From assembly GCF_020595125.1 (NCBI RefSeq), contig NZ_JACNMS010000002.1, positions 868,001 through 932,000 of the forward strand: a stretch of 64,000 nt of DNA, written 5' to 3'. The notes beneath the pieces are model-generated. The model saw only the letters and a list, made by a program, of their open reading frames with translations. It had not been told where the DNA came from and did not search any database. Both the position numbers and the translations under genes were made by a program. Below, in pieces: positions 12,344 through 60,800 of the stretch (the stretch's first letter is position 1; each line of letters starts with the position of its first letter). The DNA comes from Jeotgalibacillus aurantiacus (GTDB lineage Bacteria > Bacillota > Bacilli > Bacillales > Jeotgalibacillaceae).

Positions 12344-12493
12344 GCGCCGGGAGCATCCGCAGACTCCTGTGGCGGAAAGGAACAGGTGAACGGAGTGAGC
12401 TGATGTTGACTTATCGGACGAGTGGACAGGAAGTTTGCTAGTCCCTGCCCGCTGAAGCTAGACAAAGGAAAGCGGAGGATGGTCCCGGTGCGG
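12344..12493. repeat. Dispersed hairpin-bounded element
   Basis: Terminal arms GCGCCGGGAGCATCC (12344-12358) and GGATGGTCCCGGTGC (12477-12491) pair with one wobble and a small bulge. The interior has the shared GACTCCTGTGGCGGAAAGG block, the module GCTGATGTTGACTTATCGG, and the internal hairpin GGACaggaagtttgctaGTCC. TTTTAT follows. The 12500-12610 remainder before msmX shows nothing else I can identify. Confidence 0.8.
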
Positions 12494-12613
12494 CTTTTAT
12501 AAATCACAATAAGTTCAGGTTCAGCCGCAGACTCTTATGTTCTAAAGGATGAGCCCTGCCCGATTTTTGTCACATTGCCCAAACCCCCCTATTCTTTTTG
12601 TGCACTATGTCCA

Positions 12614-12642
12614 TTGGAAAGGCTTTCATTTAACGCTAAAAT
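12614..12642 (+). promoter_or_regulatory. sigma-A promoter of msmX
   Basis: -35 TTGGAA (12614-12619), 17-bp spacer, -10 TAAAAT (12637-12642); RBS GGAGG about 30 bp downstream. Confidence 0.65.
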
Positions 12643-12681
12643 GAAAGCAGTTACAAAGAACAGCACAATGGAGGAATCAAC

Positions 12682-13779
12682 ATGGCAGAGTTAAAACTAC
12701 AAAACATTTATAAAATCTACGATAAAGAAGTTACAGCAGTAACAGACTTCAATCTTCATATCCAGGACAAAGAATTCATCGTATTCGTTGGTCCTTCAGG
12801 TTGCGGTAAATCAACGACACTTCGTATGGTCGCAGGTCTTGAGGAAATCTCTAAAGGAGACTTCTACATTGACGACGAGCGTGTAAACGATAAAGCACCT
12901 AAAGATCGCGATATCGCGATGGTATTCCAGAACTACGCACTATACCCTCATATGAGCGTATATGACAACATGGCATTCGGTCTTAAACTTCGTAAATTTG
13001 ACAAAGCTGAAATTGACAAGCGTGTTAAAAATGCTGCCAAAATTCTTGGTCTTGAAGCACTTTTAGATCGTAAGCCGAAAGCTCTTTCCGGTGGTCAGCG
13101 TCAGCGTGTGGCACTGGGCCGTGCGATTGTACGTGATGCGAAGGTATTCCTGATGGATGAGCCTTTATCTAACCTTGACGCTAAGCTGCGTGTTCAGATG
13201 CGTGCTGAAATCGCGAAGCTTCACCAGCGTCTTCAGACAACAACGATCTATGTAACACACGATCAGACTGAAGCGATGACAATGGCAACACGTATTGTTG
13301 TTATGAAGGATGGCGTGATTCAGCAGGTTGGATCTCCGAAAGAAGTATATGACAATCCTGAGAATGTTTTCGTTGGTGGATTTATCGGGTCTCCTGCGAT
13401 GAACTTCTTCAGCGGAAAGCTTACTGAAACAGGCTTCCAGGCTGGCGATCAGCTGCTTGCTGTACCGGAAGGAAAAATGAAGACACTTCGTTCTCATGGC
13501 TATGTTGGAAAAGACATCATCCTCGGTGTGCGTCCTGAAGATATCCATGATGAGCCGGTATTTATCGAATCAGCTGCCGGATCTAAGTTCCTTGCAGATA
13601 TCGAAGTATCAGAACTTACAGGTGCCGAGCTTATGCTTTACTCAAAAGTCGGTGGACAGGACTTTGTTGCCCGCGTTGACTCACGTTCAGACATTAAAGC
13701 AGGACAAAAAGTTGAGCTTGCTTTCAACATGAACAAGTGCCACTTCTTCGATGTGGAATCAGAGCAGCGCATTAAATAA
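12682..13779 (+). CDS. msmX: Sugar ABC transporter ATPase MsmX
   Basis: 365 residues. MsmX is the shared ATPase that energises several oligosaccharide importers whose permease genes lie elsewhere, which fits its isolation here. Walker A GPSGCGKS at 37-44, signature LSGGQRQR at 135-142, Walker B VFLMDEP at 155-161, and a C-terminal TOBE/regulatory region from about residue 240 typical of the MalK/UgpC group. RBS GGAGGAATCAAC and a sigma-A-like promoter are present. Codon use is visibly biased to preferred codons, suggesting high expression. Convergent with fumC. Confidence 0.92.
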   Translation: MAELKLQNIYKIYDKEVTAVTDFNLHIQDKEFIVFVGPSGCGKSTTLRMVAGLEEISKGDFYIDDERVNDKAPKDRDIAMVFQNYALYPHMSVYDNMAFGLKLRKFDKAEIDKRVKNAAKILGLEALLDRKPKALSGGQRQRVALGRAIVRDAKVFLMDEPLSNLDAKLRVQMRAEIAKLHQRLQTTTIYVTHDQTEAMTMATRIVVMKDGVIQQVGSPKEVYDNPENVFVGGFIGSPAMNFFSGKLTETGFQAGDQLLAVPEGKMKTLRSHGYVGKDIILGVRPEDIHDEPVFIESAAGSKFLADIEVSELTGAELMLYSKVGGQDFVARVDSRSDIKAGQKVELAFNMNKCHFFDVESEQRIK

Positions 13780-13803
13780 GATGGTTACCCCCTTTAACCA
13801 TAT

Positions 13804-13838
13804 AAAAAGAGAGACGGCCATGATGCCGTCTCTCTTTT
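13804..13838. terminator. Bidirectional terminator between msmX and fumC
   Basis: Perfect stem AAAAGAGAGACGGC / GCCGTCTCTCTTTT with a 6-nt loop. Confidence 0.88.
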
Positions 13839-13857
13839 GAGTTTTTAATCACCGCAC

Positions 13858-15246
13858 TCAACGGTCAATGTTCACCATTTTGATCGGCTGAATCCACTCC
13901 TGGTACTGCTCTTCTGTCACATACCCTGTTTCAATCGCCGCTTCTTTCAACGTGAGTTCTTTCCTGAATGCAAGCTTCGCAATTTCAGCTGCTTTTTCAT
14001 AGCCGATATGGGGATTCAAAGCGGTCACCAGCATTAACGAATTGTTGACGTGACGGTCAATGACCTCAAGGTTCGCTTCAATGCCTGATGCACACTTATC
14101 GTTAAACGTATTCATCCCGTCTGCCAGCAGCGTGACGGACTGAAGGAAATTGTAAATGATCACAGGCTTAAAGACGTTCAGTTCAAAATTACCTTGGCTG
14201 GCCGCAAATCCGATCGTTGCGTCATTACCCATAATCTGTGTTGAAATCATCGTCAACGCTTCGCTCTGTGTCGGATTAACCTTTCCAGGCATGATGGAGC
14301 TTCCCGGTTCGTTTGCAGGAATGGAAATCTCACCGATCCCGCTTCGTGGTCCACTCGATAGCCACCTGATGTCATTCGCTATCTTCATCAGATCAGCTGA
14401 TAAACCTTTTAAAGCGCCGTGAAGATATACGATTTCGTCATGACTCGTCAGTGCATGAAACTTATTATCTGAAGAGTAAAACGGGAACCCTGTCTGCAAA
14501 ACAAGCTGTTTGGCAACGCGCTTACCGAATTCCTCGTGCGCATTAATCCCGGTACCAACCGCTGTGCCTCCGATCGCAAGAGATAAAATATGCTTATTTG
14601 CCTCCTGAATCATCGTGTTGGACCGCTCAAGCATCGCGCGCCAGCCGCTGATTTCCTGTCCGAGTGTCAGAGGCGTTGCGTCCTGCAGGTGTGTACGTCC
14701 AATTTTAATGATTTCATAAAACTGTTTTTCCTTCTGATAAAAGGTATCAGTCAGGTTATTTAATGCCGGGACAAGCTTTCCGCATACCGCTTTATAGGCC
14801 GCAATATGCATGGCTGTCGGAAAAGTGTCATTTGAGCTTTGAGACATATTTACATCATCATTCGGATGAACTTTTTCATCTGAACCCTGCTCTTTAAGCC
14901 AATGATTGGCACGAAACGCAATCACTTCATTTGCATTCATATTCGACTGTGTTCCGCTTCCCGTTTGCCAGACAGAAAGAGGAAAATGATCGTCCAATGA
15001 TCCATCCAGTATTTCGTTACACGCCCGCACGATCGCATCCCGTTTATGTACAGACAATTTTCCAAGATCATAATTAGCCATCGCCGCCGCTTTTTTCAGT
15101 TCAGCAAAAGCATAAGTCACCTCGATAGGCATTTTCTCAATTCCGATCGGAAAGTTTTCCAGACTTCGTTGCGTCTGCGCTCCCCAATATTTGTCCGCAG
15201 GAACCTGAATCTCACCTAACGTATCTTTCTCAGTACGATATTCCAT
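13858..15246 (-). CDS. fumC: Class II fumarate hydratase
   Basis: 462 residues, equal to B. subtilis fumarase. It interconverts fumarate and malate in the TCA cycle. The superfamily signature [11 protein letters not shown] lies at residues 315-325 and carries the mobile-loop serine; [10 protein letters not shown] and the [10 protein letters not shown] block complete the active site. I chose the ATG at 15246 because AGGAGGAGAG precedes it; the ATG seven codons upstream lies within that RBS. In B. subtilis the gene is also called citG. Monocistronic here, with a shared terminator toward msmX. Confidence 0.96.
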
Positions 15247-15392
15247 GATAATCTCTCCTCCTAACAAACACGTAATACAAATATTGTATCATGGTTAAAG
15301 CGTTTCCACACAAATGAGGATTAGACGGGATTCTTTCCCTGTACGACAATTTCCGCTAAACTTATATGTAGAAAAGATGGGAGGGGATTGTT

Positions 15393-16010
15393 ATGAAAAT
15401 CGCTTTGTTTGGTGCGACTGGACGGGTTGGAAGTGTCATTTTGGACAATGCCATTAAGGATGGTCATCACGTGCAGGCATTGGTCCGGGACGCATCCGCA
15501 GCTGTCAGTCATGATCAGGCAACCTATATTGTGGGGGATGCCTCTGTAAAAGAAGATGTGTTTCGCACCATTGCAGGGTGTGATGCCGTTGTCAGCGCAA
15601 TGGGGACAGATAAAAAAGATGCTCTGACTAAATCAATGGTCCACATTCTTCCTGCCATGAGATCAGAAGGGATCCGGAGAATTGTCACAGTCGGAACCGC
15701 AGGCATTCTTGATTCTAAAAGAGAACCTGGAAAATTCCGATTCCACTCCTCTGAATCAAACCGGAAACTCAGTACAGCAGCAGAAGACCACTGCCGCTCC
15801 TATCTCATGCTGAAAGAGGCAGACCTTGACTGGACCATCGTCTGTCCAACGTACCTGCCGGATGGAGAAAGAATTGGAAAATATCGCACAGAAATCAACA
15901 CCTTACCCGACGAACCATCCAGCATCTCCATGTACGACACCGGAGACTTTACCTACTCTCTCCTATTAAATCATCAACACATAAAAGAACGGGTAGGCAT
16001 CACCTACTAA
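15393..16010 (+). CDS. NAD(P)-binding oxidoreductase (atypical SDR, NmrA/YwnB-like)
   Basis: 205 residues with a Rossmann N-terminus: GATGRVG dinucleotide motif at about residues 7-13 and VVSAMGTDKKD following the fourth strand. The fold belongs to the NAD(P)H-binding atypical SDR group, which includes B. subtilis YwnB and YhfK. No YxxxK catalytic pair is obvious, as is common in this group, so catalytic activity is uncertain. RBS GGGAGGGG precedes the ATG. It diverges from fumC and ends in a strong terminator. Confidence 0.82.
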   Translation: MKIALFGATGRVGSVILDNAIKDGHHVQALVRDASAAVSHDQATYIVGDASVKEDVFRTIAGCDAVVSAMGTDKKDALTKSMVHILPAMRSEGIRRIVTVGTAGILDSKREPGKFRFHSSESNRKLSTAAEDHCRSYLMLKEADLDWTIVCPTYLPDGERIGKYRTEINTLPDEPSSISMYDTGDFTYSLLLNHQHIKERVGITY

Positions 16011-16055
16011 AAAAACAGCCAGTCTCCCCATCACGAGGTGAGACCGGCTGTTTTT
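16011..16055 (+). terminator. Terminator after the SDR-like gene
   Basis: Stem AAAAACAGCC..GTCTC / GAGAC..GGCTGTTTTT with one mismatch. Confidence 0.82.
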
Positions 16056-16139
16056 ACAATGAAACCAAGCAAGCGGCTCAGCCCGGGTTTTGTTTTCCTC
16101 TATCCTTCTAACCAATAAGGAGCAGATAGCATTTATTAA

Positions 16140-16188
16140 GGTGCGGACTCACTCGTAGATTCCTATGAGGAAAGGGTAAGTCTGCACC
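16140..16188. repeat. Short, decayed dispersed element
   Basis: Arms GGTGCGGACTCACTC and GGGTAAGTCTGCACC are still mostly complementary. The 19-bp interior (gtagattcctatgaggaaa) looks like the two ends of the longer element (gactcctgtggcggaaag) with the middle deleted. Confidence 0.6.
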
Positions 16189-16240
16189 TGTTCTCTCTTT
16201 CATTTTCACCAAAGAAGAAAAGTCTGGAAATCTTACTGAG

Positions 16241-16480
16241 GGTCGAGGCGCATCCGAAGACTCCTACGGCAGAGAAGCGACAGGTGAGACAGCGTAGCGC
16301 GGAGCGCTAGCTGGCTCACCGCGCGGCCTTGGAAAAGCGGAGGCGACTCGTCCAGCCCCGACAAGCATAAGGCGAAGATGAATAGAGGGCTGATCTTTGC
16401 ACTCTTTCATCTTTGACTTATGACCTCGAGGGGCTAGTCGCCGGAGCTAGACAAAGGAAAGCGAAGGATGCGCCTCGGCC
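16241..16480. repeat. Dispersed hairpin-bounded element, 240-bp form
   Basis: Arms GGTCGAGGCGCATCC and GGATGCGCCTCGGCC pair fully with one wobble. Inside lie GACTCCTACGGCAG, an apical hairpin GGTGAGacagcgTAGCGC / GCGCTAgctggCTCACC, and an embedded module pairing AGCCCC/GGGGCT, CATAAG/CTTATG and AAGATGAA/TTCATCTT. Its length equals that of the copy at 48825. Confidence 0.85.
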
Positions 16481-16492
16481 CGATTCTAACAG

Positions 16493-16523
16493 AAAAAACG
16501 CCCGGATCACTCCGGACGCTTTT
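16493..16523 (-). terminator. Terminator of bmrCD
   Basis: Read on the minus strand: GCGTCCGGA / TCCGGGCGT followed by six T. Confidence 0.75.
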
Positions 16524-16525
16524 CC

Positions 16526-18538
16526 CTATACAGCCTTCTTCCCCTGCTGCAGCTCATACATCTGATAATACTTCCCGCGCCTTGCCATCAGCTCATCATG
16601 CGTCCCCTTCTCCACAATTTCCCCGCGGTCCAGCACAATAATCTGATCCGCATTCTTAATCGTAGACAAACGGTGCGCAATAATAAACGTCGTCCGGCCG
16701 GATTTCAGCGTCTCCATGGCCTCCTGAATAATCGACTCCGTCTCTGTATCAATACTCGACGTTGCCTCATCCAGCACAAGAACCGCCGGATTGAACGCCA
16801 GCGCTCTTGCAAACGAAATTAACTGCCGTTGTCCTGAGGAAAGCGTGCTTCCTTTTTCAATGACCGGCTCATCAATTCCCTGTTCAAGGTGAGTCAGCAC
16901 TCTGTCTGCTCCAACCGCTTTCAAAGCAGCTTCAACTTGTTCTCTTGAAATCCTCGGATCATTTAAGCTGACATTTGATGCAATTGTTCCCGTAAATAAA
17001 TATGGATCCTGCAGCACAATACCCATGTGATCACGAATTGTCTGCTTCGGTACATCCTGAATATTCATGCCATCAACAGAAATGATCCCTTTTTGATTAT
17101 CATAAAACCGGAAAAGCAGATTCATGATTGATGACTTTCCTGAACCAGTATGCCCGACGAGACCGATCGTTTCACCCGGTTTCGCTTCAAAGGACAGGTT
17201 CTTTAACACATATTCATCGTTTTTATAGGCAAATGATACGTCATCAAACTTCACATGACCTTTGATGCGCTCCATTTTCCCATCAACCACAGTTTCCCCT
17301 TCTTCATCCATCAGCTTAAACACACGCTCACCTGCCACAAGGGCAAGCTCGAGGTTCGCCAGCTGATTGACAATCCCGGTAACCGGCTGGAACAGTCTAG
17401 TAATATAGTCAACAAATGCGTACAAAACACCAACCGTAACAACGGATTCCGCATTCAGCGCCCCGCTCCCGAAATACCAGATAAAAGCGACGAAGGTGAT
17501 GTTTCTTAAAATCCCCACGAGATTATGAGACATGAGCGAATTCAGGTTCAATAGCTTATTCTGGAATTGAAAATGAGTCGTATTCTTTTCTTCGAATTCA
17601 CCCTGTATTTTCTTTTCTTTTCTGAAAGCCTGAATAATCGTCATCCCCTGGATCGACTCGTTAATGGATGCATTAATCTCGCTCACTTTAGAGCGGACTG
17701 TCTGATTATATTTCGAGGCGTACTTGCGATAAATGACCATCCACAAAATCAATAGTGGAATCAGTACGAGACAGATTGCTGCCAGTGTCGGGTCAAGGAT
17801 GAATAACGCAACGTAAATCCCGGTAATATAAATCCCGCTGTGGAAAAACTGCGCTAACACCTGCACATACAATTCTCTAATGGCTTCTGTATCATTGGTG
17901 ATTCTTGACACTACTTTTCCTGCAGGCAAATTATCAAAATAGTTGATCGGAAGCCGCTGGATATGACCAAACACTTCCGTTCTCATTTTTTGAATAATCC
18001 GGTTTGCTGAACGCTGCAGCTGGAATTCCTGCCCAAAATGGAAAACAGCCGCAATAACGGTTAAGACAAAATAAAGCAGGACAAGCTGAATCATTCTCGG
18101 AATTTCCGGACGGTAAAAGGCCAGCACCTCTGACGCACTTAATTCTTCAGCACGGTAGGATACAGATTCCTCACCCGTACCAAAGATCAGCATGCCGTTT
18201 TCATAACTGCGCTCCCCTTCTGCCTCTGTCACCGGTTCGTCTACGAAATAGAAGTTCAGACCGATTTGAAAAATACCTGCTTCCCCTCCAGTCTGCTCTC
18301 CTTCATTCAGGTAGGCTTCCCGCTTATAAAATGTATCGTTATAAGCGACAGCGTCCTTCCCCTGATCCGTCTGCACCCACGTTTCCTCAATACCCATGAT
18401 GTGATCATCAATCATTTTTTTAGCAATAAACGGACCTGCCAGTTCTGCTGCAACCGAGACTGTCAGCATGACCAGCGCAATGATGATCGTCTTTTTATAC
18501 AGCAATGCATAATGGTAAAGTCTTTTTCCTACACTCAT
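16526..18538 (-). CDS. bmrD: Multidrug ABC exporter subunit BmrD (YheH)
   Basis: 670 residues (B. subtilis BmrD/YheH 673). Half-transporter with six helices in the first 380 residues and a C-terminal ATPase. A hydrophilic insertion between helices 1 and 2 (about residues 45-125) is characteristic of the subunit. Walker A GHTGSGKS and Walker B LVLDEATSSID carry the catalytic glutamate, while its signature reads LSSGQ instead of LSGGQ. This fits an asymmetric heterodimer in which the consensus ATP site combines this Walker B with the BmrC signature. It overlaps bmrC by four bases (ATGA). Confidence 0.93.
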   Translation of the reverse strand: MSVGKRLYHYALLYKKTIIIALVMLTVSVAAELAGPFIAKKMIDDHIMGIEETWVQTDQGKDAVAYNDTFYKREAYLNEGEQTGGEAGIFQIGLNFYFVDEPVTEAEGERSYENGMLIFGTGEESVSYRAEELSASEVLAFYRPEIPRMIQLVLLYFVLTVIAAVFHFGQEFQLQRSANRIIQKMRTEVFGHIQRLPINYFDNLPAGKVVSRITNDTEAIRELYVQVLAQFFHSGIYITGIYVALFILDPTLAAICLVLIPLLILWMVIYRKYASKYNQTVRSKVSEINASINESIQGMTIIQAFRKEKKIQGEFEEKNTTHFQFQNKLLNLNSLMSHNLVGILRNITFVAFIWYFGSGALNAESVVTVGVLYAFVDYITRLFQPVTGIVNQLANLELALVAGERVFKLMDEEGETVVDGKMERIKGHVKFDDVSFAYKNDEYVLKNLSFEAKPGETIGLVGHTGSGKSSIMNLLFRFYDNQKGIISVDGMNIQDVPKQTIRDHMGIVLQDPYLFTGTIASNVSLNDPRISREQVEAALKAVGADRVLTHLEQGIDEPVIEKGSTLSSGQRQLISFARALAFNPAVLVLDEATSSIDTETESIIQEAMETLKSGRTTFIIAHRLSTIKNADQIIVLDRGEIVEKGTHDELMARRGKYYQMYELQQGKKAV

Positions 18539-20292: not shown

Positions 20293-20327
20293 TCCAGATA
20301 ACCTCCTTTAATCCGATTCCAATCAGG

Positions 20328-20381
20328 CTACCCACTATCCAGCTCCGCCTTGATTGTTCCTTCCCATGCAAAATAAATCAT
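20328..20381 (-). CDS. 17-codon small ORF in the bmrCD leader
   Basis: Encodes MIYFAWEGTIKAELDSG and stops with TAG. Its RBS (GAAGGAGG, spacing about 8) is as good as that of bmrC. It lies between the second leader terminator and bmrC, 35 bp before the bmrC start. It may be a second leader peptide or the shortened remnant of a bmrB-like gene. I do not recognise the peptide. Confidence 0.5.
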   Translation of the reverse strand: MIYFAWEGTIKAELDSG

Positions 20382-20526: not shown

Positions 20527-20560
20527 TCCATACAAATTCAAATAAACATCATCAGAATCG

Positions 20561-23768: not shown

Positions 23769-23839
23769 TCAATATAAACCGGGCCTGCGCGTCCGGTTTT
23801 TTGATGCGGAAAGCACTAAACTGAGGAACTTTTAGTGGT

Positions 23840-24018
23840 GATTAGACCACTTTTTAGCTTTATTTGACCACTTTTTCTGGGTATTCGACCACTTTTTCGG
23901 AGTATTTGACCACTCTTTGAAAGTATTCGACCACTCTTCTGGAGTATTTAACCACTTCCTGGGTTTTTGACCACTCTTCTGGAGTATTCGACCACTTTAT
24001 TGACTTATTTAACAACCT
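23840..24018 (+). repeat. 21-bp tandem repeat array (eight to nine units)
   Basis: Units of the form TATTYGACCACTYTTCTGGAG, 21 nt apart, with one unit two bases short. The last unit drifts to AACAACCTT. Same family as the array at 12151. It follows the photolyase gene, with no clear terminator between. Confidence 0.85.
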
Positions 24019-24035: not shown

Positions 24036-24099
24036 CCTAGCTCAGCTGACTCACCGCGCGGTCACCGAAAAGCGGAGGCGACTCGTCCAGGCCCGGTTT
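24036..24099. repeat. Truncated dispersed element
   Basis: GACTCACCGCGCGGTCACC then GAAAAGCGGAGGCGACTCG, near-identical to the 3' half of the elements at 16241 and 48825, but with no matching left half or arms. A broken copy. Confidence 0.7.
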
Positions 24100-24102
24100 T
24101 TG

Positions 24103-31359: not shown

Positions 31360-31426
31360 GGGCCGTCCTTATCCTACGCTTTCTGTTGTCTAGCTGCGTC
31401 GGGGAGTCTCCGGATAAGGACGGCCC
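31360..31426. repeat. Short dispersed element (67 bp)
   Basis: Perfect 15-bp arms GGGCCGTCCTTATCC / GGATAAGGACGGCCC enclose only CTACGCTTTCTG ... TAGCTGCGTCGGGGAGTCTCC. The core hairpin of the longer copies is missing. An A run precedes and TTTTT follows. The 31440-31630 interval shows nothing more. Confidence 0.85.
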
Positions 31427-31635: not shown

Positions 31636-31748
31636 GGGCTGGACTCACCCGGAGACTCCTGTGGCGGAAAGGGACAGGTGAAACCGACTGAGCGAAGCTC
31701 AGGCGGGTTCACCGCCCGGCCACGGAAAGCGGAGGGTGAGTCCAGCCC
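31636..31748. repeat. Dispersed hairpin-bounded element
   Basis: Perfect arms GGGCTGGACTCACCC / GGGTGAGTCCAGCCC, middle helix GTGGC/GCCAC, apical hairpin GGTGAAACCgacTGAGC / GCTCAggcGGGTTCACC. 113 bp. Confidence 0.88.
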
Positions 31749-39718: not shown

Positions 39719-40828
39719 TTAATACGGCAGGATGATCTGAATCTGTGTACCTTCTCCCGGTGCACTCTGAATGTGGAATGTTCCGTTCAGTATCCTTGTC
39801 CGTTCTTTCATACTGGATATACCGATTGATGGAAGCCGTTCAAGGTGATCGGTATAAAAACCCTGACCAAAATCCCGGATAATGAGACTGATCCTGTCTT
39901 CAAATGCCTCAATCCAGATGAAAATTTCATCCGTTGCTGCATGACGTTTGCAATTAGTCATCGCTTCCTGCGTAATCCTGAAGATTGCTTCTTCAATTCT
40001 TGCCGGGAGGTTTAACACACCGCTCACTTTGATCTCTACGGTTAATCCGAGTATTTCACCAAACCCTTTTACCGCTTCACTGATTCCGCCTTCTACCCCT
40101 TTTGGCCGAAGCTGCCAGATTAAGGCGCGCATTTCAGTCAGCGCTTCCTGGGCAAGTGATTGAAGACCGTGAAATGTTTCTTTGACTTCCTGTTGATCCG
40201 TCATCTCCGCTCCTCCGCGTGCTGTTAATGTCATTGAAAAGAGAAGCTGATTCACCGAGTCATGCAGATCCCTTGCCAACCGGTTCCTTTCCTGCATGAG
40301 CGCTACTTCCTGCTCCTTTTTTGTTAACTGAATCCGTTTAATAGCTGAACCGATCTGAAAAGCCACTGATTCAAGCAAAGCAAGCTCTTCATGTCCGAAT
40401 TCTCTTCTCCCGGGTGTGGCTACATTCAACAGTCCGAATCTTTCATTACCTGACTGTAACGGCACCGTCGCATGATGTGTAATGCCATCCGTACTCTCAC
40501 GTTTGCGGTCTACTGCTTCAACAATTCTTTTACACTCAATTATATTAGATGCCTTCTTCAGGCTCCCTCTTTTAAACCTGTTTACACACCAGCAGCCACC
40601 TGCTTTCATAAAGTAGCAGTCCTTTTCAAGCAGTGCATCAGGCAGATGGTGATGGGCAATTAAAGAATGCCTGCCATCCTCTTCTATAAAAAACACCCAT
40701 CCGGCATGAAAATCAGTTCCATCAAGGAATTTTTTTAATGCTCCTTCAAGCATGGATTCAAGTTCTGTTTCTTCATTCAGTAATTCAGCAATTTCTTTTA
40801 AAATGACGACATGTGATGGATTGTTCAT
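39719..40828 (-). CDS. yhcY: Sensor histidine kinase YhcY
   Basis: 369 residues (B. subtilis YhcY 379). Cytosolic: no transmembrane segment. N-terminal GAF domain (about 20-165) with several cysteines (KDCYFMKAGGCWCVNRF), then HisKA_3 with phosphoacceptor His in ERNRLARDLHDSVNQLLFSM, and a HATPase with IIRDFGQGF. A GAF domain with CYF ... CWC spacing could bind a metal or redox cofactor; this is only an inference. RBS GGGGGAAAG. A perfect TATAAT lies about 20 bp upstream of the RBS. Confidence 0.92.
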   Translation of the reverse strand: MNNPSHVVILKEIAELLNEETELESMLEGALKKFLDGTDFHAGWVFFIEEDGRHSLIAHHHLPDALLEKDCYFMKAGGCWCVNRFKRGSLKKASNIIECKRIVEAVDRKRESTDGITHHATVPLQSGNERFGLLNVATPGRREFGHEELALLESVAFQIGSAIKRIQLTKKEQEVALMQERNRLARDLHDSVNQLLFSMTLTARGGAEMTDQQEVKETFHGLQSLAQEALTEMRALIWQLRPKGVEGGISEAVKGFGEILGLTVEIKVSGVLNLPARIEEAIFRITQEAMTNCKRHAATDEIFIWIEAFEDRISLIIRDFGQGFYTDHLERLPSIGISSMKERTRILNGTFHIQSAPGEGTQIQIILPY

Positions 40829-40986: not shown

Positions 40987-41098
40987 GTGCCGGGGCACTC
41001 CTTCGCTTTCCGCGGCCGCGCGGTGAGCCAGCTGTGCTTCGCACATCTGGCTCACCTGTCGCTTCACTGCCGCAGGAGTCTTCGGAATGTCCCGGCAC
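40987..41098. repeat. Dispersed hairpin-bounded element
   Basis: Arms GTGCCGGGGCACTCC / GGAATGTCCCGGCAC (13 Watson-Crick pairs, one wobble, one mismatch), middle helix GCGGC/GCCGC, apical hairpin GGTGAGCCAGCTGTGC / GCACATCTGGCTCACC. 112 bp. Confidence 0.88.
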
Positions 41099-43011: not shown

Positions 43012-43127
43012 GTTGATCTCCACTACAGTTGGCGCTTTCCGCGGCCGCGCGGTGAGCCGGCACGCACTACGCTGTCTCACCTGTCGCTTCTCTGCCGCAG
43101 GAGTCGCCAACTTCCGTTCCGATCAAC
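43012..43127. repeat. Dispersed hairpin-bounded element (divided arms)
   Basis: Outer GTTGATC/GATCAAC and inner AGTTGGCG/CGCCAACT helices, separated by an internal loop, enclose GCGGC/GCCGC and the GGTGAG/CTCACC hairpin. Arms unlike those of any other copy. Confidence 0.82.
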
Positions 43128-45939: not shown

Positions 45940-46054
45940 GGGTCGGACTCATCCTACGCTTTCCGCGGCCGCGCGGTGAGCCAGCTAATGCTTCGCATTA
46001 CGCTGTCTCACCTGTCGCTTCACTGCCGCAGGAGTCTTCGGATGAGTCCAACCC
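45940..46054. repeat. Dispersed hairpin-bounded element
   Basis: Arms GGGTCGGACTCATCC / GGATGAGTCCAACCC (14 of 15 paired), middle helix GCGGC/GCCGC, apical hairpin GGTGAGCCAGCTAATGC / GCATTACGCTGTCTCACC. Seven A precede and TTTTT follows. Confidence 0.88.
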
Positions 46055-46339: not shown

Positions 46340-46453
46340 GGCCCGGAAGCCCCCGTAGACTCCTGAGGCGGAGAAGGGACAGGTGAAACCGACTGTGCGA
46401 AGCGCAGGCGGGTTCACCGCCCGGCCTAGGAAAGCGAATGGGGCTTCCGGGCC
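46340..46453. repeat. Dispersed hairpin-bounded element
   Basis: Perfect 14-bp arms GGCCCGGAAGCCCC / GGGGCTTCCGGGCC, the GGTGAAACC/GGTTCACC apical hairpin with TGTGC gaa GCGCA, and a weakened middle helix (GAGGC/GCCTA). Confidence 0.88.
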
Positions 46454-47437: not shown

Positions 47438-47440
47438 TAC

Positions 47441-48750: not shown

Positions 48751-48824
48751 GAAAAGTCTTACTTTAAATAAGCTTGATCCAATTTTTCCTTTCTTTAAAT
48801 GAGTCAGGTAGCAGACTACAATAG

Positions 48825-49064
48825 GGCCGGGGCGCATCCGAAGACTCCTACGGCAGAGGAGCGACAGGTGAGACAGCGTATTGCGTAGCAATAGCTGGCT
48901 CACCGCGCGGCCGTTGAAAAGCGGAGGCGACTCGCCCAGCCCCGACAAGCATAAGGCGAAAATGAAAAGAGGGTTGCCCTTTACCCTCGTTCATTTTTGA
49001 CTTATGACCTCGAGGGGCTAGTCGCCGCAGCTAGACAAAGGAAAGCGAAGGATGCGTCCCGGCC
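48825..49064. repeat. Dispersed hairpin-bounded element, 240-bp form
   Basis: Arms GGCCGGGGCGCATCC / GGATGCGTCCCGGCC (one wobble), middle helix ACGGC/GCCGT, apical hairpin with TATTGC/GCAATA, and an embedded module AGCCCC/GGGGCT, CATAAG/CTTATG, AAAATGAA/TTCATTTT. Same length as the copy at 16241. Confidence 0.88.
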
Positions 49065-49146
49065 CGGTTTTAAACAAGAACAGGGCCGAAGACAAAATAA
49101 AACGTCTCCAGTTTTTATTAAACAATTCAGCACATTAATCCGAGCA

Positions 49147-49881: not shown

Positions 49882-49912
49882 AAGAGCCCGGGATCATTCC
49901 GGGCTCTTTTTT
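49882..49912 (+). terminator. Terminator of the nitroreductase gene
   Basis: Stem AAGAGCCCGG / CCGGGCTCTTTTTT. Confidence 0.88.
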
Positions 49913-49917
49913 AATGG

Positions 49918-50001
49918 TATTTGACAACTATTTCAGGTTAATAGACAACCTTTTGCGGTTATTGAACAACTTTCCTCACTTATTTAACAACTCTTCCCCA
50001 A
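49918..50001 (+). repeat. 21-bp tandem repeat array (four units)
   Basis: Four units in 21-nt register with the core TATTTGACAACTATTTC, where CAACT replaces the CCACT of the arrays at 12151 and 23840. A diverged member of the same family, again just downstream of a gene. Confidence 0.8.
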
Positions 50002-51897: not shown

Positions 51898-52008
51898 GGG
51901 ACGTACCCATCCTACGCTTTCCGCGGCCGCGCGGTGAGCCAACTGTGCTGCGCACATTTGTCTCACCTGTCGCTTCACTGCCGCAGGAGTCTTCGGATGG
52001 GTACGCCC
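51898..52008. repeat. Dispersed hairpin-bounded element
   Basis: Arms GGGACGTACCCATCC / GGATGGGTACGCCC (one base missing on the right), middle helix GCGGC/GCCGC, apical TGTGC tgc GCACA. Confidence 0.88.
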
Positions 52009-52124
52009 CTCTGATTATGTCACTTAACAAGTAATATCTCTAAACTGGATTCTCAGCTGATTAATTTCACACAAAATATTGTCCATAGTTTGTCTGTATA
52101 TTTTCTCATGAACATCTGTTCAGA

Positions 52125-52369
52125 GGACTGGAAGCCTGGCGGAAAGGGACAGGTGAAACCGGCTAAAGCTCAGGCAGGTTCACCGCCCGGCCATAGAAAA
52201 GCGAAGGAGGGCGCATAGGGACGTACAAACTGGACTGGCCCCGACGGAGATAAAGGAAACACAGTGAACGAAGTGAGCTGATGTTGACTTATCGGACGAG
52301 GGGACGGAAAGTTTGCTAGTCCCTGCCCGATACAGCTAGACAAAGGAAAGCGAAGGGGGCTTCCAGTCC
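52125..52369. repeat. Dispersed composite element
   Basis: Perfect 12-bp arms GGACTGGAAGCC / GGCTTCCAGTCC enclose a GGTGAAACC/GGTTCACC hairpin and a module with GCTGATGTTGACTTATCGG and hairpin GGGACggaaagtttgctaGTCCC, as also found at 664 and 12344. TTTTTT follows. The 51715-51897 interval and 52370-52440 show nothing else; no purine riboswitch precedes the permease. Confidence 0.85.
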
Positions 52370-53757: not shown

Positions 53758-53770
53758 TCATGATAAGAAA

Positions 53771-53821
53771 ATGGACCGTACAAATTCTTCTTTTTAAGAA
53801 GCTCTGTACGGTCCATATTTT
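53771..53821. terminator. Terminator after the purine permease
   Basis: Stem ATGGACCGTACA / TGTACGGTCCAT with an inner TTCTTC/GAAG helix. Confidence 0.8.
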
Positions 53822-53865
53822 AATGTAAAAATGATCATCCACCTCACCCGGAATACCTTCAGTCC

Positions 53866-55008: not shown

Positions 55009-55135
55009 CGTGCGGACACTCCCCCTTCTTCCGCTCTTTTTTTAGTGTATGAAGAGTCGGGAAAGAAATTGCAGGAAATGTGAATGTTATCGAAATAAAA
55101 AGTCCCAGTTCCTTTCTTTCAGCAAGCGGTCAAAC

Positions 55136-55164
55136 AAAAAAATCCGCTGGGGTGCGGATTTTTT
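55136..55164. terminator. Bidirectional terminator upstream of yhbH
   Basis: Stem AAAAAATCCGC / GCGGATTTTTT; overlaps the end of the next gene. Confidence 0.8.
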
Positions 55165-55472
55165 CAGCTCTTTTCCAGAGCGGTCGAGCGTGATGCATCG
55201 ATGAGAAGAATGATGGAGGTAACAAGGTGCATGATAAATCCGACAAATGGAATAATGCCGATAATACTCGTCACAATGCCAAAAATACTACCTGTTTTCG
55301 AAGTGAATTCTCTCATAGCAAAGATCAGTGTCACGATATGAAGGGCAAGCATGATCCAAAGCGGTGTCCATGCTGTAAAAGCGATAATTGAACCACCCAG
55401 TACAGGAATCGCCCAGAAGGCCTCTAGCCCGCCTGTGATCCATTTTAAAACAGTGGATATTCTCAACGTCAT
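55164..55472 (-). CDS. Three-helix membrane protein
   Basis: 102 residues with helices at about 7-30 (VLKWITGGLEAFWAIPVLGGSII), 33-52 (WTPLWIMLALHIVTLIFAM) and 62-90 (IFGIVTSIIGIIPFVGFIMHLVTSIILLI). Glycine-rich and hydrophobic; the family is not recognised. RBS AAAGGAAAGGACG. Same strand as prkA and yhbH but with its own terminator. Confidence 0.75.
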   Translation of the reverse strand: MTLRISTVLKWITGGLEAFWAIPVLGGSIIAFTAWTPLWIMLALHIVTLIFAMREFTSKTGSIFGIVTSIIGIIPFVGFIMHLVTSIILLIDASRSTALEKS

Positions 55473-55578
55473 CAGCGTCCTTTCCTTTATTCATGGTATA
55501 GACTGACGGCCGATTTATCAAACCTTACTACTTATACGAGTTTTCATTAAAAAAGTTTCACTAAATGTGCTCAGACCG

Positions 55579-55613
55579 AAAAAAATGATCAGCTGCTGTG
55601 CTGATCATTTTTT
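55579..55613 (-). terminator. Terminator of the 56-residue protein gene
   Basis: Perfect stem AAAAAATGATCAGC / GCTGATCATTTTTT; overlaps the stop codon region. Confidence 0.85.
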
Positions 55614-55775
55614 GTCATCGTATTGAATCGGATCCGATAAACGTTGACTGACCTTTAATTCACCGCCTGAACGAATCTTTTCCATCTGCTTGCCAAGGAG
55701 AATGAGTTCTTCCATATTGTTGGCCATGCTTCCATTGAACGGTTCAAGCTCTTTGAAATAATCTCTTCCCGGCAT
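55605..55775 (-). CDS. Small protein, paralogue of the 55-residue protein next to prkA
   Basis: 56 residues: MPGRDYFKELEPFNGSMANN then MEELILLGKQMEKIRSGGEL and a polar tail. The segment SMANNMEELILLGKQMEKIR matches SMASDLEEMDQLGKQMDKMR of the neighbouring gene, so they are paralogues. Helical and soluble. I chose the ATG at 55775 with GGGAG upstream; the longer frame has no RBS. A promoter (TTCACA-17-TACTAT) lies 80-105 bp upstream. Confidence 0.75.
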   Translation of the reverse strand: MPGRDYFKELEPFNGSMANNMEELILLGKQMEKIRSGGELKVSQRLSDPIQYDDKK

Positions 55776-55853
55776 ACGATCACGCTCCCGTTTTGTTTTT
55801 ATTGTAACACTTTCTGAAAATTCAGTCAAAAGTCGTAGAAAAAGTACGCGTTT

Positions 55854-55882
55854 ATAGTATGCACGATGTTCGTGAATGTGAA
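55854..55882 (-). promoter_or_regulatory. Promoter of the 56-residue protein gene
   Basis: Minus strand -35 TTCACA (55877-55882), 17-bp spacer, -10 TACTAT (55854-55859). CATACTA, the forespore sigma-G/F -10 form, overlaps the -10, but a matching -35 is not obvious. Confidence 0.5.
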
Positions 55883-55940
55883 ACGTACCATTTGATGTAA
55901 ACATCTAATGAACATTGTGCAATGTTTTACGAACGAAACG

Positions 55941-55976
55941 AAAAAACGGAGAGCACCCACATGCGTGCTCCCCGTC
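55941..55976 (-). terminator. Terminator of the prkA unit
   Basis: Minus strand GGGGAGCAC / GTGCTCTCC followed by GTTTTTT. Confidence 0.82.
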
Positions 55977-55986
55977 TTCATTAACG

Positions 55987-56154
55987 TTATTCATGTTCAT
56001 CCTGCTTCGTTCCGGATTCCCTGTTTTTCAGCTGTTTAGCCGTTCTCATTTTATCCATCTGCTTGCCAAGCTGATCCATTTCCTCGAGATCTGATGCCAT
56101 CGAGCTGTTTTCAGGTACTTCCTGTTTCATCTCTTCTTTTTTACGATCTGTCAT
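55987..56154 (-). CDS. Small protein directly downstream of prkA
   Basis: 55 residues: MTDRKKEEMKQEVPENSSMA then SDLEEMDQLGKQMDKMRTAK and a charged tail. Predicted to be one long amphipathic helix; no membrane segment. It begins 47 bp after the prkA stop, with RBS GAGGTGA, and is followed by a terminator, so it is the last gene of the prkA transcript. Paralogous to the 56-residue protein at 55605. A role with PrkA is inferred from position only. Confidence 0.75.
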   Translation of the reverse strand: MTDRKKEEMKQEVPENSSMASDLEEMDQLGKQMDKMRTAKQLKNRESGTKQDEHE

Positions 56155-56201
56155 GAATCTCACCTCAAAGTGATTTTACCCTGAGGAGCTTTTCATAAAC
56201 G

Positions 56202-58097
56202 TCAGCGGTTCAGCAGACTTCCGACATAGCGCAGCAGGTCATTGGCACTGACTGTATTATAGCCATACTCATCAATCAACCTGGCGATGACTTCATTCAT
56301 TTTCTTCAATTGCTGTTCATCCGGCGTTTTGGACGACGTTGTAATTTTCACAACATCCTTCAGATCAGAAAACAGCTTTTTCTGAATCGCTTCCTTCAGT
56401 CGGCTGTGAGACTGATAATCAAACCGCTTCCCTTTTCTGGCAAATGCAGATATACGGATCAGTATTTCTTCACGGAACGCTTTTTTAGCATTTTCAGAAA
56501 TGCCGATCTGCTCCTCAATCGATCGCATGAGCCGCTCATCAGGTGTCATTTCCTCACCTGTCAGCGGATCACGTAATTTCGTTTTATGACAATAAGCCTC
56601 GACATTATCAAGATAATTATCCATTAACGTCTTGGCTGATTCCTCATATGAATAAACGAAGGCTTTCTGCACTTCTTTTTTCGCCATCTCATCAAATTCT
56701 TTACGCGCGAGTGAAATGCAGGTTAAGTAGTGCTCCTTCAAATCCTTCGAAATGGAGGCATGCTGTCCGAGTCCTTCTTTAAGTGAGCGAAGAACATCAA
56801 GTGCGTTGATGGATTCCATTTCCTTTCGGATGATGGTAGAGGAAATCCGGTTAATCACATAACGCGGATCCACACCGCTCATTCCTTCATCCGGGAATTC
56901 CTTATGAAGCTCTTCAAGATCAGCATCTCCCAAGCCTTCTACAGAATCGCCGTCATACAGCTTCATTTTTTTAATCAGATCAATATCTTTGCGGTTTGGC
57001 TCCTTCAATCTTGTGAGAATTGTAAATACAGCAGCCGTCCTCAGCGTGTGGGGAGCAATGTGTACATCTGATACATCGCTTTCTGAGATCAGCTTTTCAT
57101 AAATTTTCTCTTCCTCTGACACCTTCAGATTATACGGAACCTTCATAATGATCATCCGGGAATGTAACGCTTCATTTTTCTTATTAGCGATAAAGGAACG
57201 GTACTCCGTTTCATTTGTGTGGGCTACAATCATCTCATCAGCTGAAATCAGCGCGAATCGTCCGGCCTTAAAATTCCCTTCCTGAGTAAGTGATAACAGG
57301 TGCCACAGGAACTTTTCATCACATTTCAGCATTTCCTGAAATTCCATCATCCCTCTGTTCGCTTTGTTAAGCTCCCCATCAAAACGGTAAGCCCTTGGAT
57401 CTGATTCAGACCCGAATTCAGCGATCGTTGAAAAATCAAGGCTTCCGGTTAAATCAGCAATATCCTGGGATTTTGGATCTGACGGGCTGAAGGTACCGAT
57501 CCCGACCCGTTTATCCTCAGAGAAAAACACTCTCTCCACCGGCACCTGATCGATTTGACCATTGTACTCTTTTTCGAGTTTCATCATATTTAACGGAGAA
57601 AGATTTCCTTCGATTCTGATGCCATATTCCTGAAAAAAATCCTCCCGCAATGCTTCAGGAATCAGATGCAGAGGGTCCTCATGCATGGGACAGCCTTTAA
57701 TGGCATACACTGCTCCCCGCTCTGTACGGGTATAGGCTTCAAGCCCTCTTTTCAGCATCGTCACAAGCGTCGATTTCCCTCCACTCACCGGCCCCATCAG
57801 CAATAAGATCCGCTTTTTCACATCAAGACGTCTTGCTGCAGGGTGAAAATACTCTTCAACCAGCTTTTCAAGCGGTTCCTCTAGCCCAAATAACCTTTCT
57901 TTGAAAAACTGATAATATTTCTTCCCGTTGACGGTTTCTACGCCTGCGTCCTGAATCATGTTGTAGATGCGCGCATGTGCGGATTGAGCGACCCAGGGCT
58001 TTTTTTCGAGAAGCTTCAAGTACTCTCCGAAGGTTCCTTCCCACTTCAAGGCAGATTCTTTATGTTGGTAATCCGTTACTTTTCTTAGCATATCCAT
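56202..58097 (-). CDS. prkA: PrkA serine protein kinase
   Basis: 631 residues, identical in length to B. subtilis PrkA. An N-terminal AAA+-like ATPase domain (Walker A GPVSGGKST at about 103-111) precedes a C-terminal kinase-related domain. Reported as a kinase, and for B. subtilis also as an ATP-dependent protease, acting early in sporulation. EEYFHPAARRLDVKKRILLLMGPVSGGKST and IKGCPMHEDPLHLIP are invariant family blocks. I chose the ATG at 58097 after AGGGGGAG. The MCP gene lies immediately upstream on the same strand. Confidence 0.95.
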   Translation of the reverse strand: MDMLRKVTDYQHKESALKWEGTFGEYLKLLEKKPWVAQSAHARIYNMIQDAGVETVNGKKYYQFFKERLFGLEEPLEKLVEEYFHPAARRLDVKKRILLLMGPVSGGKSTLVTMLKRGLEAYTRTERGAVYAIKGCPMHEDPLHLIPEALREDFFQEYGIRIEGNLSPLNMMKLEKEYNGQIDQVPVERVFFSEDKRVGIGTFSPSDPKSQDIADLTGSLDFSTIAEFGSESDPRAYRFDGELNKANRGMMEFQEMLKCDEKFLWHLLSLTQEGNFKAGRFALISADEMIVAHTNETEYRSFIANKKNEALHSRMIIMKVPYNLKVSEEEKIYEKLISESDVSDVHIAPHTLRTAAVFTILTRLKEPNRKDIDLIKKMKLYDGDSVEGLGDADLEELHKEFPDEGMSGVDPRYVINRISSTIIRKEMESINALDVLRSLKEGLGQHASISKDLKEHYLTCISLARKEFDEMAKKEVQKAFVYSYEESAKTLMDNYLDNVEAYCHKTKLRDPLTGEEMTPDERLMRSIEEQIGISENAKKAFREEILIRISAFARKGKRFDYQSHSRLKEAIQKKLFSDLKDVVKITTSSKTPDEQQLKKMNEVIARLIDEYGYNTVSANDLLRYVGSLLNR

Positions 58098-58164
58098 TGG
58101 TACTCCCCCTCTTAACCGTCCTCTATAACACGGTATGCAAAAGGGAAGCGGATCATGTGCTTTT

Positions 58165-59412
58165 TCAGCCTGCCTGAACAATTGCTGTCTTTAGTTCAAT
58201 CAGGGATGATTCCATCTCTTTAATCTTTCCGGTTTCCTTCGTAATATTATCCTGATAGTCCTGCATCTGTCTCATCGCTTCCTCATTTTCAGAAACGAGA
58301 CTTTCAACAGTCGATGAAATGGCGTTAAATTCAGCCTTCAGCTGCACAGAATCATTTCTCGCAGACTCTATTTCACTGTCGCTCTGCTGAACACCCTTGA
58401 TAATTTCAGTAAAGTGATGATTCATATCACTGATTTTACTGATATTTTTATTAATCTCCTCCGCTTTTTGCCTGCTATCAAAAGCGGCACTCTCTGTTTT
58501 TAAGACAATTTCATTTACCGATTGATCAATGGACCTCGTTGCTTCACCAACACTCGAAGCCAGCTTTTTCACTTCATCTGCCACCACTGCAAAACCCTTA
58601 CCATGCTCTCCCGCTCTTGCCGCTTCTATGGATGCATTAAGTGCTAATAAGTTTGTCTGTTCAGCTACTTCTGAAATGACCTGAGACATTTTTTTAGTGG
58701 AAAGAATCTCTTCTTTTAACTGATTAAAATAATGATCCGTTGTTTTCACGTACGATTCAATTTCTTCCACTGTTCCCGCTGTTTCATCAGCAAGCTTTAT
58801 GCCTTCCCTTGAATAACGGTCAATCGAAGAAAAGGACTGTTTAACGTCCTGCATTTTATCCGCTGTTTTATCTACTTTTCCACTAATCATATGTATGATC
58901 GCTGCAATCTCCTGATAAGAGGATAACTGTTTTCCGGATCTGGAATAGATCAAACCGAATTTTCCTGTATTATCCGTCATATTTGTTGTGATGGAACCGA
59001 TGGAATGGCTGACTGAATCTGATGTCGCTGCAACCTGCTCCTGCTGGGAAGCTTTCATCTGGTGATTGAGCTCGATCTGGTCAAATAATTTATCCATTTG
59101 CCCCGCTAGATACCCAAGCTCATTTTTCGATTTGGACTGAATTCTCGCCTTCATGTCCCCCTGCTGAAATTTCTTTGTCGTTTCAATCATTTTCTGAATT
59201 GGACGTAACATCATACTGCGGATCGTCAGACCGATTAAAACCGTTGCAACAATGACATTCATAAAGTTATTCAGCCAAATACCAATCACACCGAGCTCAA
59301 TCCCTGTCGACTGAATTGCCTGGATAATAAAACTTGAAATGGTTGTATTAAACAAAAGCACCGCAATCAGAACAGCAAGAAATCGAAACGTTAAACGATT
59401 CAGCATTTTCAT
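58165..59412 (-). CDS. Methyl-accepting chemotaxis protein without a ligand domain
   Basis: Predicted 415 residues. Two helices (about 6-28 and 40-63) are joined by only about ten residues, so there is no extracytoplasmic sensor domain. A HAMP domain follows ([23 protein letters not shown]), then a coiled-coil signalling domain with the tip [22 protein letters not shown]. It may sense membrane state or work through a partner. I chose the ATG at 59412, eleven bases from AAAGGAG; a TTG two codons earlier has tighter spacing. Confidence 0.88.
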
Positions 59413-59578
59413 ATTCAAACACACTCCTTTTTTCCTAGTTCTATAGGACTTATATACACGTGGGTTTATCTGTTTAAACATTTTTTCAGCAATCCATTTG
59501 AATTTTAACAATCATGCGCTGTTTATGATAAAGTGATGACAGTTTCAAGTTAATCGCAAATTAACTGCCTTTCCTTTA

Positions 59579-59607
59579 TTCACAATGCGGCTGTTGTCGG
59601 GTATACT
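59579..59607 (+). promoter_or_regulatory. Promoter of the 31-residue peptide gene
   Basis: -35 TTCACA (59579-59584), 17-bp spacer, -10 TATACT (59602-59607); RBS GGGAGG about 35 bp downstream. Confidence 0.7.
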
Positions 59608-59651
59608 TACTAGTAGTGATCAATTTGAACGCTTACAGGGAGGTTATATTC

Positions 59652-59747
59652 ATGGGTACAGTACTTATTTTAGGTATTTGTGTAGCATTTCTTGCTGCTA
59701 TTTTCTCTGCTGGCTATAACGATAAGCCGGGCTCTCATAAGGAATAA
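59652..59747 (+). CDS. 31-residue single-helix membrane peptide
   Basis: Encodes one helix (GTVLILGICVAFLAAIFSAG) with a short polar tail (YNDKPGSHKE). RBS CAGGGAGG ten bases upstream, a good promoter and an immediate terminator make this a convincing independent gene. Family not recognised. Confidence 0.75.
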   Translation: MGTVLILGICVAFLAAIFSAGYNDKPGSHKE

Positions 59748-59784
59748 TAAAAAGACCGTACAAGCGTACGGTCTTTTTATTATT
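59743..59784. terminator. Bidirectional terminator
   Basis: Perfect stem AATAAAAAGACCGTAC / GTACGGTCTTTTTATT around AAGC, between convergent genes. Confidence 0.88.
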
Positions 59785-60529
59785 TCCGGGCAAACTTTTT
59801 CTTTTCCACGAAATCCTTCATATACATTCTGCTCTTACGGCTGAGCATACCGGCCATTTGCTCCGTCCATTTATCCGAACGTTTCCCTTCCGTCCGCTGA
59901 TGATAATAGCTTGAAATCACATCGTTATACTCCTCCAGCTCACTACGGACCGCTTCCTCATCGGACTGATACGTATTTTCATGGTAAACCGTTTTAAATG
60001 GATACCTCGGCTTAACAGCCGTTTCCTGATCAGGCACACCCACTGTCAGACCAAATAGGGGAATGACATGTTCTGGTGTCCCGAGAAGCTCACTCACTTC
60101 ATCCAGATGATTCCGGATGCCGCCAATATAACAAATACCCAGCCCCATTGATTCAGCCGCCACAGAAGCATTTTGCGCAGCCAGTGATGCATCAATGACA
60201 GCCACCATAAACTTCTCCATAGATTCCAGCGAATCATTGACATCAGCACCGTCCCACTGTCCAATCAGAGAGTGACGGTATAAGTCAGCACAAAATACAA
60301 AGAAGTGACCTGTCTCTGCCACATAGCTTTGGCCACCTGCCAGCGCCGCAAGTTTCTCTCTTTTTTCCTGATCCGTCACTCCAATAATGCTGTAGGCCTG
60401 AATAAAGCTTGAGGTGGAAGCACTCTGAGCAGCCTTCACAATCACCTCAATCTGCTCCGCTGTCAAAGCTTCGTCTTTAAACTTTCTCACTGAGCGGTGC
60501 TCAAGCATCATTTTAATTGTTTCATTCAT
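59780..60529 (-). CDS. NADPH-dependent nitro/flavin reductase NfrA type
   Basis: 249 residues, equal to B. subtilis NfrA1. FMN-binding N-terminus MLEHRSVRKFKDEALTAEQ, central AAESMGLGICYIGGIRNHLDEVSELL and FGLTVGVPD, and the long C-terminal extension with basic residues (KWTEQMAGMLSRKSRMYMKDF) typical of the NfsA/NfrA group. Reduces flavins and nitro compounds. The ATG at 60529 gives the family length though the RBS is weak; an upstream ATG adds a Cys-rich heptapeptide. Confidence 0.9.
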   Translation of the reverse strand: MNETIKMMLEHRSVRKFKDEALTAEQIEVIVKAAQSASTSSFIQAYSIIGVTDQEKREKLAALAGGQSYVAETGHFFVFCADLYRHSLIGQWDGADVNDSLESMEKFMVAVIDASLAAQNASVAAESMGLGICYIGGIRNHLDEVSELLGTPEHVIPLFGLTVGVPDQETAVKPRYPFKTVYHENTYQSDEEAVRSELEEYNDVISSYYHQRTEGKRSDKWTEQMAGMLSRKSRMYMKDFVEKKKFARK

Positions 60530-60629
60530 ACATCCATCGCAACCTTTCATTCATGTCTACTGATAAGTGTACAAAAATTGAGAAAACGATGCGAATCATT
60601 CAGCTCGGACGAATGGCTATATCATTATA

Positions 60630-60664
60630 AAAAATACAGCTGTCCCGTTTTTTGGGACAGCTTT
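60630..60664 (-). terminator. Minus-strand terminator-like hairpin
   Basis: AAAGCTGTCCC / GGGACAGCT with TTTTTTA after it on the minus strand, next to the dispersed element at 60690. Confidence 0.65.
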
Positions 60665-60689
60665 CAATAGAGTCTTGATTATAGAAACC

Positions 60690-60800
60690 GTGCCGGAGAC
60701 ATCCTCCGCTCCGTGGCCGGGCGGTGAACCCGCCTGCGCTTCGCACAGTCGGTTTCACCTGTCCCTTTCCGCCACAGGAGTCTCCGGATGTCTCCGGCAC
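60690..60800. repeat. Dispersed hairpin-bounded element
   Basis: Perfect 15-bp arms GTGCCGGAGACATCC / GGATGTCTCCGGCAC, middle helix GTGGC/GCCAC, apical hairpin GGTGAACCC / GGTTTCACC with TGCGC ttc GCACA. TTTTT follows. Confidence 0.9.

Follow-up and report, generated by a model that had tools for sequence, protein, structure and literature searches.

The 64,000-nt stretch of the Jeotgalibacillus aurantiacus genome analyzed here (contig NZ_JACNMS010000002.1, positions 868,001 to 932,000; hereafter the window) comes from a 3.5-Mb genome and contains a family of dispersed intergenic elements with a conserved interior, enclosed by arms that differ between loci and pair within each copy. The best explanation, to which we assign a probability of about 0.55, is that the family is a structured-RNA repeat of ancient origin, whose core is under selection and whose arms have been rewritten in matched blocks, either through template switching or through exchange between copies. 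The window comprised 12 copies as well as a decayed and a truncated one (Table 1). A preliminary description of this DNA had listed thirteen positions and proposed a bidirectional terminator, a structured RNA, a mobile hairpin or template switching as possible explanations. A copy was present at each of these positions, that at 16140 being decayed and that at 43012 having atypical arms, and the example arms (60690, 31360, and 46340) were correct as quoted; the truncated copy at ~24036–24100 was absent from that list.

Architecture of the element and pairing of its arms

In canonical orientation, an A-rich flank precedes a 15-nt arm (consensus GKGCCGGNNNCATCC), which is followed by GNA, GACTCC and a GC-rich hairpin and thereafter by GGAAAGC, GNA, the matching arm and GGTTTT. 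Two subtypes of the hairpin were distinguished: 74 of the 123 curated copies of the host and its sister species were CGC, 47 were CCC and 2 were of other types. The same arm types were found with both CGC and CCC. The interior is ~81–85 nt long, and optional modules enlarge the elements to between 240 and ~430 nt; long copies carry one or two added modules ending in AGCTAGACA ahead of the closing strand. In several other genomes the fold extends outward, with an inner arm, a GGA/GGA-like loop and an outer helix such as TTGATT/AATCAA. The loop at the junction of arm and core was scored in 34 of 35 inspected copies from 13 other genomes, with ties resolved towards equal sizes. It was a 3 × 3 GNA/GNA loop in 20 copies, a 2 × 2 GA/GA loop in eight and a 1 × 1 loop in two, and four copies had none.

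The arms were 15 bp long in the simple form, rather than 12–15 bp as first described. In 88 simple copies of the host genome, a pattern catalog that was left unfiltered and includes false hits in coding sequence, the Watson-Crick pairing was 0.90–0.97 at each of arm positions 1–15 and fell to 0.11, about chance, at position 16. Such hits were filtered out of the curated sets, for which GACTCC, AGCG and at most five arm mismatches were required. Among the 77 curated host copies, 1136 of 1155 arm pairs were Watson-Crick; 60 copies were perfect and there were 62 distinct arms, while shuffling of the arms produced a mean of 1.34 perfect copies and a maximum of seven in 1000 shuffles. Together, the host and the sister species yielded 132 candidates. 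Nine with 6–12 mismatches were dropped, and of the 123 kept, 92 were perfect, 28 had one mismatch and three had two, with 87 distinct arm sequences. All four bases were comparably frequent at arm positions 6 and 7 and less evenly distributed at position 8, yet the pairing there was still 0.90–0.93.

Covariation was evaluated in 79 aligned copies. The score was 0.398, compared with 0.109 ± 0.005 after shuffling and 0.039–0.076 in slid controls, and was reached by none of 500 shuffles. Both sides changed in 22 of 43 pairs, and none of the 500 shuffles reached any of the five measures. Shared ancestry alone is inadequate as an explanation of this pairing and covariation.

Paired changes and comparison with the sister species

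The interior contained a T.G pair that was kept in 58/59, 31/31, and 19/19 copies of three length classes (both species pooled), and this retention suggests that the canonical strand is the one that folds. Between neighboring types one pair apart, the matched changes in the interior comprised 16 transitions and four transversions, and the one-sided changes 16 wobbles and 15 mismatches, compared with eight, 11, four and three, respectively, in the arms (Fisher's test, p = 0.022 for transitions vs. transversions and p = 0.048 for wobbles vs. matched changes). These p-values serve as indications, since the neighbor counts and the orthologs are not independent. A second count among 64 perfect arm types gave 12 transitions and 15 transversions between single-pair neighbors. 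The arm mismatches were G.T in 20 cases, A.C in five and others in nine, and this lean towards G.T speaks for a single folding strand (p = 0.016 when compared with the C/T share of the flanks, orthologs being counted twice; p = 0.04 for host copies alone).

That the core is conserved, the wobble fixed and the family present in many genera speaks for a structured RNA maintained by selection. For the interior this explanation fared well, with a conserved wobble, transition-type covariation and loops that were kept across genera. Template switching suited the arms, where matched jumps, few wobble neighbors and, at one site, a reversed interior were found, but it stops short of proof. Covariation "seen directly" was apt as a description; however, the arms did not resemble classical step-by-step compensation. 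Tentatively, we propose that one molecule combines two modes of change, in which the interior evolves by classical RNA compensation and template switching rewrites both arms in a single step.

The nearest relative among the genomes compared (G004), a sister species in the same genus, shared 89–95% identity with the host over the longest aligned stretches. The compared stretches covered part of its genome, and 53 of 84 host copies could be placed on them. Most element sites were shared. When contig C7 was compared with its host counterparts, 19 of 26 host loci were occupied in both species, six only in the host (including a weak match and a locus that corresponds to a truncated element in the sister species) and one was unmapped; 19 of the 20 sister loci were likewise occupied in both. 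Stretches of five congeners corresponding to window positions 40000–61500 contained seven matches: three lay in the same gene gaps as c5 (G009 and G008) and c12 (G009), and four where the window has none.

Interiors were exchanged between arms that stayed in place. At sites 0, 9, 45, 53, 57, 66, and 71 the arms were equal up to a single base and the interior was changed, by a short deletion at site 9 and, at the other six, with a medium form in one species and a long form in the other; internal modules varying in number at fixed sites, as at these six, are a BOX-like trait. At sites 3 (c12) and 6 (c5), the subtype and the inner arms were changed jointly and the outer 7–8 bp were unchanged. At site 61 the interior was reversed, and longer, between near-identical arms. 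Orientation also differed at sites 24 and 31, but the positions there were not the same, and site 76 had a short, more decayed form. At site 55, the element of the sister species (L189) had another, longer arm type (AGGTGAGCGGAGCGTCAGGCGG) where the host had a standard one. In another region (L020 in the host, L091/L138 in the sister species), two adjacent elements and the stretch between them appeared to be inverted between the species; their arms were nearly the same, with single matched pair changes.

Twelve loci with the same interior were chosen by hand for a comparison of rates, and the differences between the species amounted to 9/1009 in the core, 8/360 in the arms and 101/2276 in the flanks. 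The core is under constraint (p = 1e-8); constraint on the arms, which changed at about half of the flank rate, was less clear (p = 0.06).

We infer that this intergenic family is ancient and mainly vertically inherited, and that its canonical strand would be transcribed and fold as RNA. The interior would be maintained by selection on its fold, whereas the 15-bp outer arms would mainly need to match, with much of their sequence free. The copying step that rewrites them in matched blocks would be a template switch from one arm to the other in the course of replication, a process described as homogenizing arms and inverting spacers (PMC8604942; PMC8794818). Interiors, sometimes together with the inner arms, are exchanged between copies.

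Several observations weigh against this proposal. The share of transitions in the arms (12/27 and 8/19 in the two counts) is near that of substitutions in the flanks (134/246), which is compatible with copied random mutations but also with inherited subfamilies or a slow change in two steps. A cleanly reversed interior was seen at only one of 53 mapped sites, and its length differed too. Sites 10, 14, 50, and 81 carried hybrids with a single replaced arm, in which full matching was lost, so exchange does not always leave the arms matched. Finally, the 12 same-interior loci displayed six one-sided arm changes and one matched pair, which indicates that the copying is not fast.

Distribution of the family and its copies in the window

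A covariance model was built from six window copies. At least 150 matches were found in the host genome at E ≤ 0.001 (the best 150 of 697 candidates) and at least 150 in the sister species; such a genome-wide search had been suggested at the outset. The sequence GGAAAGCGNAG occurred 158 times in the host genome, compared with nine times for its reversed control. When 61 genomes from 48 genera were searched, 44 genomes and 32 genera had related copies, and a class-wide sample gave matches in 49 of 299 genomes and 21 of 118 genera (host included in both genome counts). The early guess that relatives occur in other Bacillaceae was thereby borne out at the level of the order.

The element is a widespread structured repeat of Bacillales without a match in Rfam 15: at the gathering score, the window yielded only a tRNA and nothing on the element. 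Eight loci of relatives gave a purine riboswitch and Bacillaceae-1 adjoining the element and no match on the element itself. The Bacillaceae-1 match (G047, locus L198, 1733–1799; 35.8 bits, cut-off 35) lay ~100 nt from an element. At E ≤ 10, window positions 12200–16600 gave two weak hits on copy c2, PrrB_RsmZ (E = 0.67; 17.6 bits, cut-off 44) and sR19 (E = 8.7), both of which were taken as chance. A text search across 5.39 million papers with six stretches of 12–13 bases from the wider family gave a single Drosophila paper unrelated to the element and none that contains this sequence; figures and the majority of subscription journals lay outside its coverage.

The draft contigs of the sister species ended within ~200 nt of copies in several cases (among C3, C4, C8, C16, C19, and C20); therefore, these repeats probably break assemblies. 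The window also held arrays with a 21-nt period at 565–663, 12151–12268, 23828–23996, and ~49910–49991. Those at 12151, 23828, and 49910 had a common GACCAC/AACCAC/GACAAC-like motif at a spacing of 21 or 42 nt.

Table 1. Copies of the element in the 64-kb window and the state of the corresponding sites in the sister species.
Copy	Position	Strand	Remarks
c1, composite form	12344..12495	+	part of the interior deleted compared with the sister species; imperfectly matched arms GCGCCGGGAGCATCC / GGATGGTCCCGGTGC
decayed copy	16139..16188	+	hairpin fold still present
c2, long form with extra module	16240..16481	+	only a 3' relic in the sister species
truncated copy	24036..24100	+	missed in the preliminary description
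c3, short deletion derivative	31360..31426	-	perfect 15-bp arms; longer form with the same first arm in the sister species
c4, medium form, CCC subtype	31636..31748	+	
c5, medium form, CGC subtype	40987..41098	-	CCC subtype at the sister site; outer arm the same, inner arms changed
c6, interrupted atypical arms	43012..43127	-	GTTGATC..GATCAAC; sister site at a contig break, with a relic of one end
c7, medium form, CGC subtype	45940..46054	-	missing in the sister species together with c8
c8, medium form, CCC subtype	46340..46453	+	missing in the sister species
c9, long form	48824..49065	+	medium form with the same arms in the sister species
c10, medium form, CGC subtype	51898..52009	-	
c11, composite long form	52125..52369	+	
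c12, medium form, CCC subtype	60690..60800	-	CGC subtype in the sister species; inner arms changed, outer GTGCCGG kept

Gene context, rival explanations and related repeats

The gene context was analyzed for 32 elements from the window and contig C7, with open reading frames called by a simple length rule. Twenty-three elements lay between co-directional genes, seven between convergent genes and two, in one region, between divergent genes. The element was oriented with the genes in 17 of the 23 co-directional pairs (p = 0.035). On the canonical strand, a T-rich stretch came after the stem in 64 of the 77 curated host copies, and on the other strand in 48, in agreement with the runs of A before and T after the element reported initially. 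The T run was also present in copies of the sister species.

These tails bear on the idea that the element is a long bidirectional intrinsic terminator, which we consider improbable as an account of the family. It would explain why 42/77 copies are T-rich on both strands, given a background of 258/1386 stretches (19%, from one strand of one flank), and why elements were found in 1 of 34 divergent intergenic regions vs. 27 of 170 others (p = 0.054). However, the combination of a GC-rich stem and a T tract that defines intrinsic terminators was found in the host species and not in its congeners or in other genera. Only 6 of 31 copies from 13 other genomes had T tracts (0/4 in four congeners and 6/27, near background, in other genera), and the terminator-like tails thus belong to the species pair and not to the family. 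Moreover, of 33 gene ends that face an element, 19 already carried an ordinary terminator, compared with 105 of 162 ends without an element (p = 0.43), and the conserved interior loops would be superfluous for termination. In the host species, the most likely present use, at about one chance in three, would be that the stem and the T tracts serve behind genes as a back-up, in the form of a bidirectional terminator or insulator.

Selection on arms and interior alike, with arm diversity arising by ordinary compensatory point mutation as in a classical functional RNA, is unlikely, though the least so of the rivals. Strong covariation, the excess of G.T over A.C and the reduced rate of arm change are all expected of it. 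Against it, the pair changes in the arms were of the transversion type with few wobble neighbors, unlike those in the interior of the same molecule, and arm position 14 was exclusively G-C or T-A in the 77 host copies. Slow ordinary compensation together with inherited subfamilies could also have produced the arm pattern. Least probable is a non-autonomous mobile element, of the miniature inverted-repeat transposable element (MITE), repetitive extragenic palindrome (REP) or EFAR-like kind, that entered stem-loops and kept part of the target stem as its arms. The family is dispersed, modular and of high copy number; the outermost 4 bp were common to the exchanged elements at five of seven sites hand-listed after looking (chance 0.22, p = 0.007); and a Y1 transposase gene fragment lay ~13 nt from an element in genome G051. 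However, the sites were mostly common to both species, the arms share a family consensus, and distant-mode searches of plasmid and phage collections with a single query copy gave no match. Neither a target-site duplication nor a clean insertion was seen when c7/c8, site 83 and the six host-only loci (including site 29) were inspected by eye, although a pre-insertion site is possible at site 83 and at the last C4 locus; these empty sites can be read as short-repeat deletions, relics or replaced stretches, some of them lacking more than the element. The terminal inverted repeats of MITEs are common among copies, in contrast to the many distinct arms found here, albeit with a consensus. The possibility that the arms derive from insertion into ready-made terminator loops was rejected because they have a family consensus and a fixed length.

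A Y1 transposase flanked by the repeats, as in systems of REPs and their associated tyrosine transposases (RAYTs), was not found: none of 10 examined Y1 loci, from 35 PF01797 matches, had an element match, the fragment in G051 being the exception. Genome G007 had no PF01797 match and nevertheless at least 59 elements. A link with the Y1 transposases of the host was likewise not supported, both genes lying in contig C1 at 44579–262123, a region with no copy among the 150 matches listed. At locus L218 of G051 (~1396–1623), an element was situated directly at a broken IS200-type transposase reading frame. Host locus L231 (1102–1869) contained a Y1 transposase-like gene of 255 aa and no element match; its neighbor is presumably a comM-like gene, judging from its sequence.

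The proposed structured-RNA repeat can be classed with the BOX/EFAR-like repeats. In Enterococcus faecalis, EFAR elements are modular and palindromic, and they enter stem-loops and keep part of the target stem, which gives them locus-specific ends. The present family differs from EFAR in that its arms measure exactly 15 bp and share a consensus, and in that distant genera are linked by conserved internal loops. EFAR elements have been named among the MITEs (PMC3733652). The BOX elements of Streptococcus pneumoniae, as described in PMC3049150, are likewise intergenic, have variable inner modules, would form a stem-loop if transcribed, and proliferated in the past with slow present insertion. 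This likeness is one of description, and BOX has terminal inverted repeats and target duplications (PMC3049150), whereas the arms here were copy-specific and no duplication was seen. The bcr1 repeats of the B. cereus group and Bhal-1 of B. halodurans are also intergenic repeats of Bacillus with a predicted conserved fold; Bhal-1, 74 bp long and with 36 copies (PMC2267715), could be kin of the element, judging from its description. REP/RAYT palindromes are similarly intergenic, palindromic and of high copy number (PMC3733652), but the present element is far longer, and no Y1 gene flanked by it occurred among the loci examined.

The closest parallel in mode of change is provided by RNA hairpins altered by template switching, in which matched changes on both sides of a stem and inverted loops arise from one event (PMC8794818). 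In that study, the inference of rare events relied on rRNA and microRNA, whereas the present case is a repeat family. Whether matched changes in RNA stems result from two selected mutations or from one copying event is, as set out there, an open question (PMC8794818). With more than 100 copies per genome, variable matched arms, an interior that serves as an internal control and a close sister species, both origins can be compared here in the same molecules. If the two-mode reading is true, the family would offer, in nature and in many copies, an assay for the origin of compensatory substitutions.

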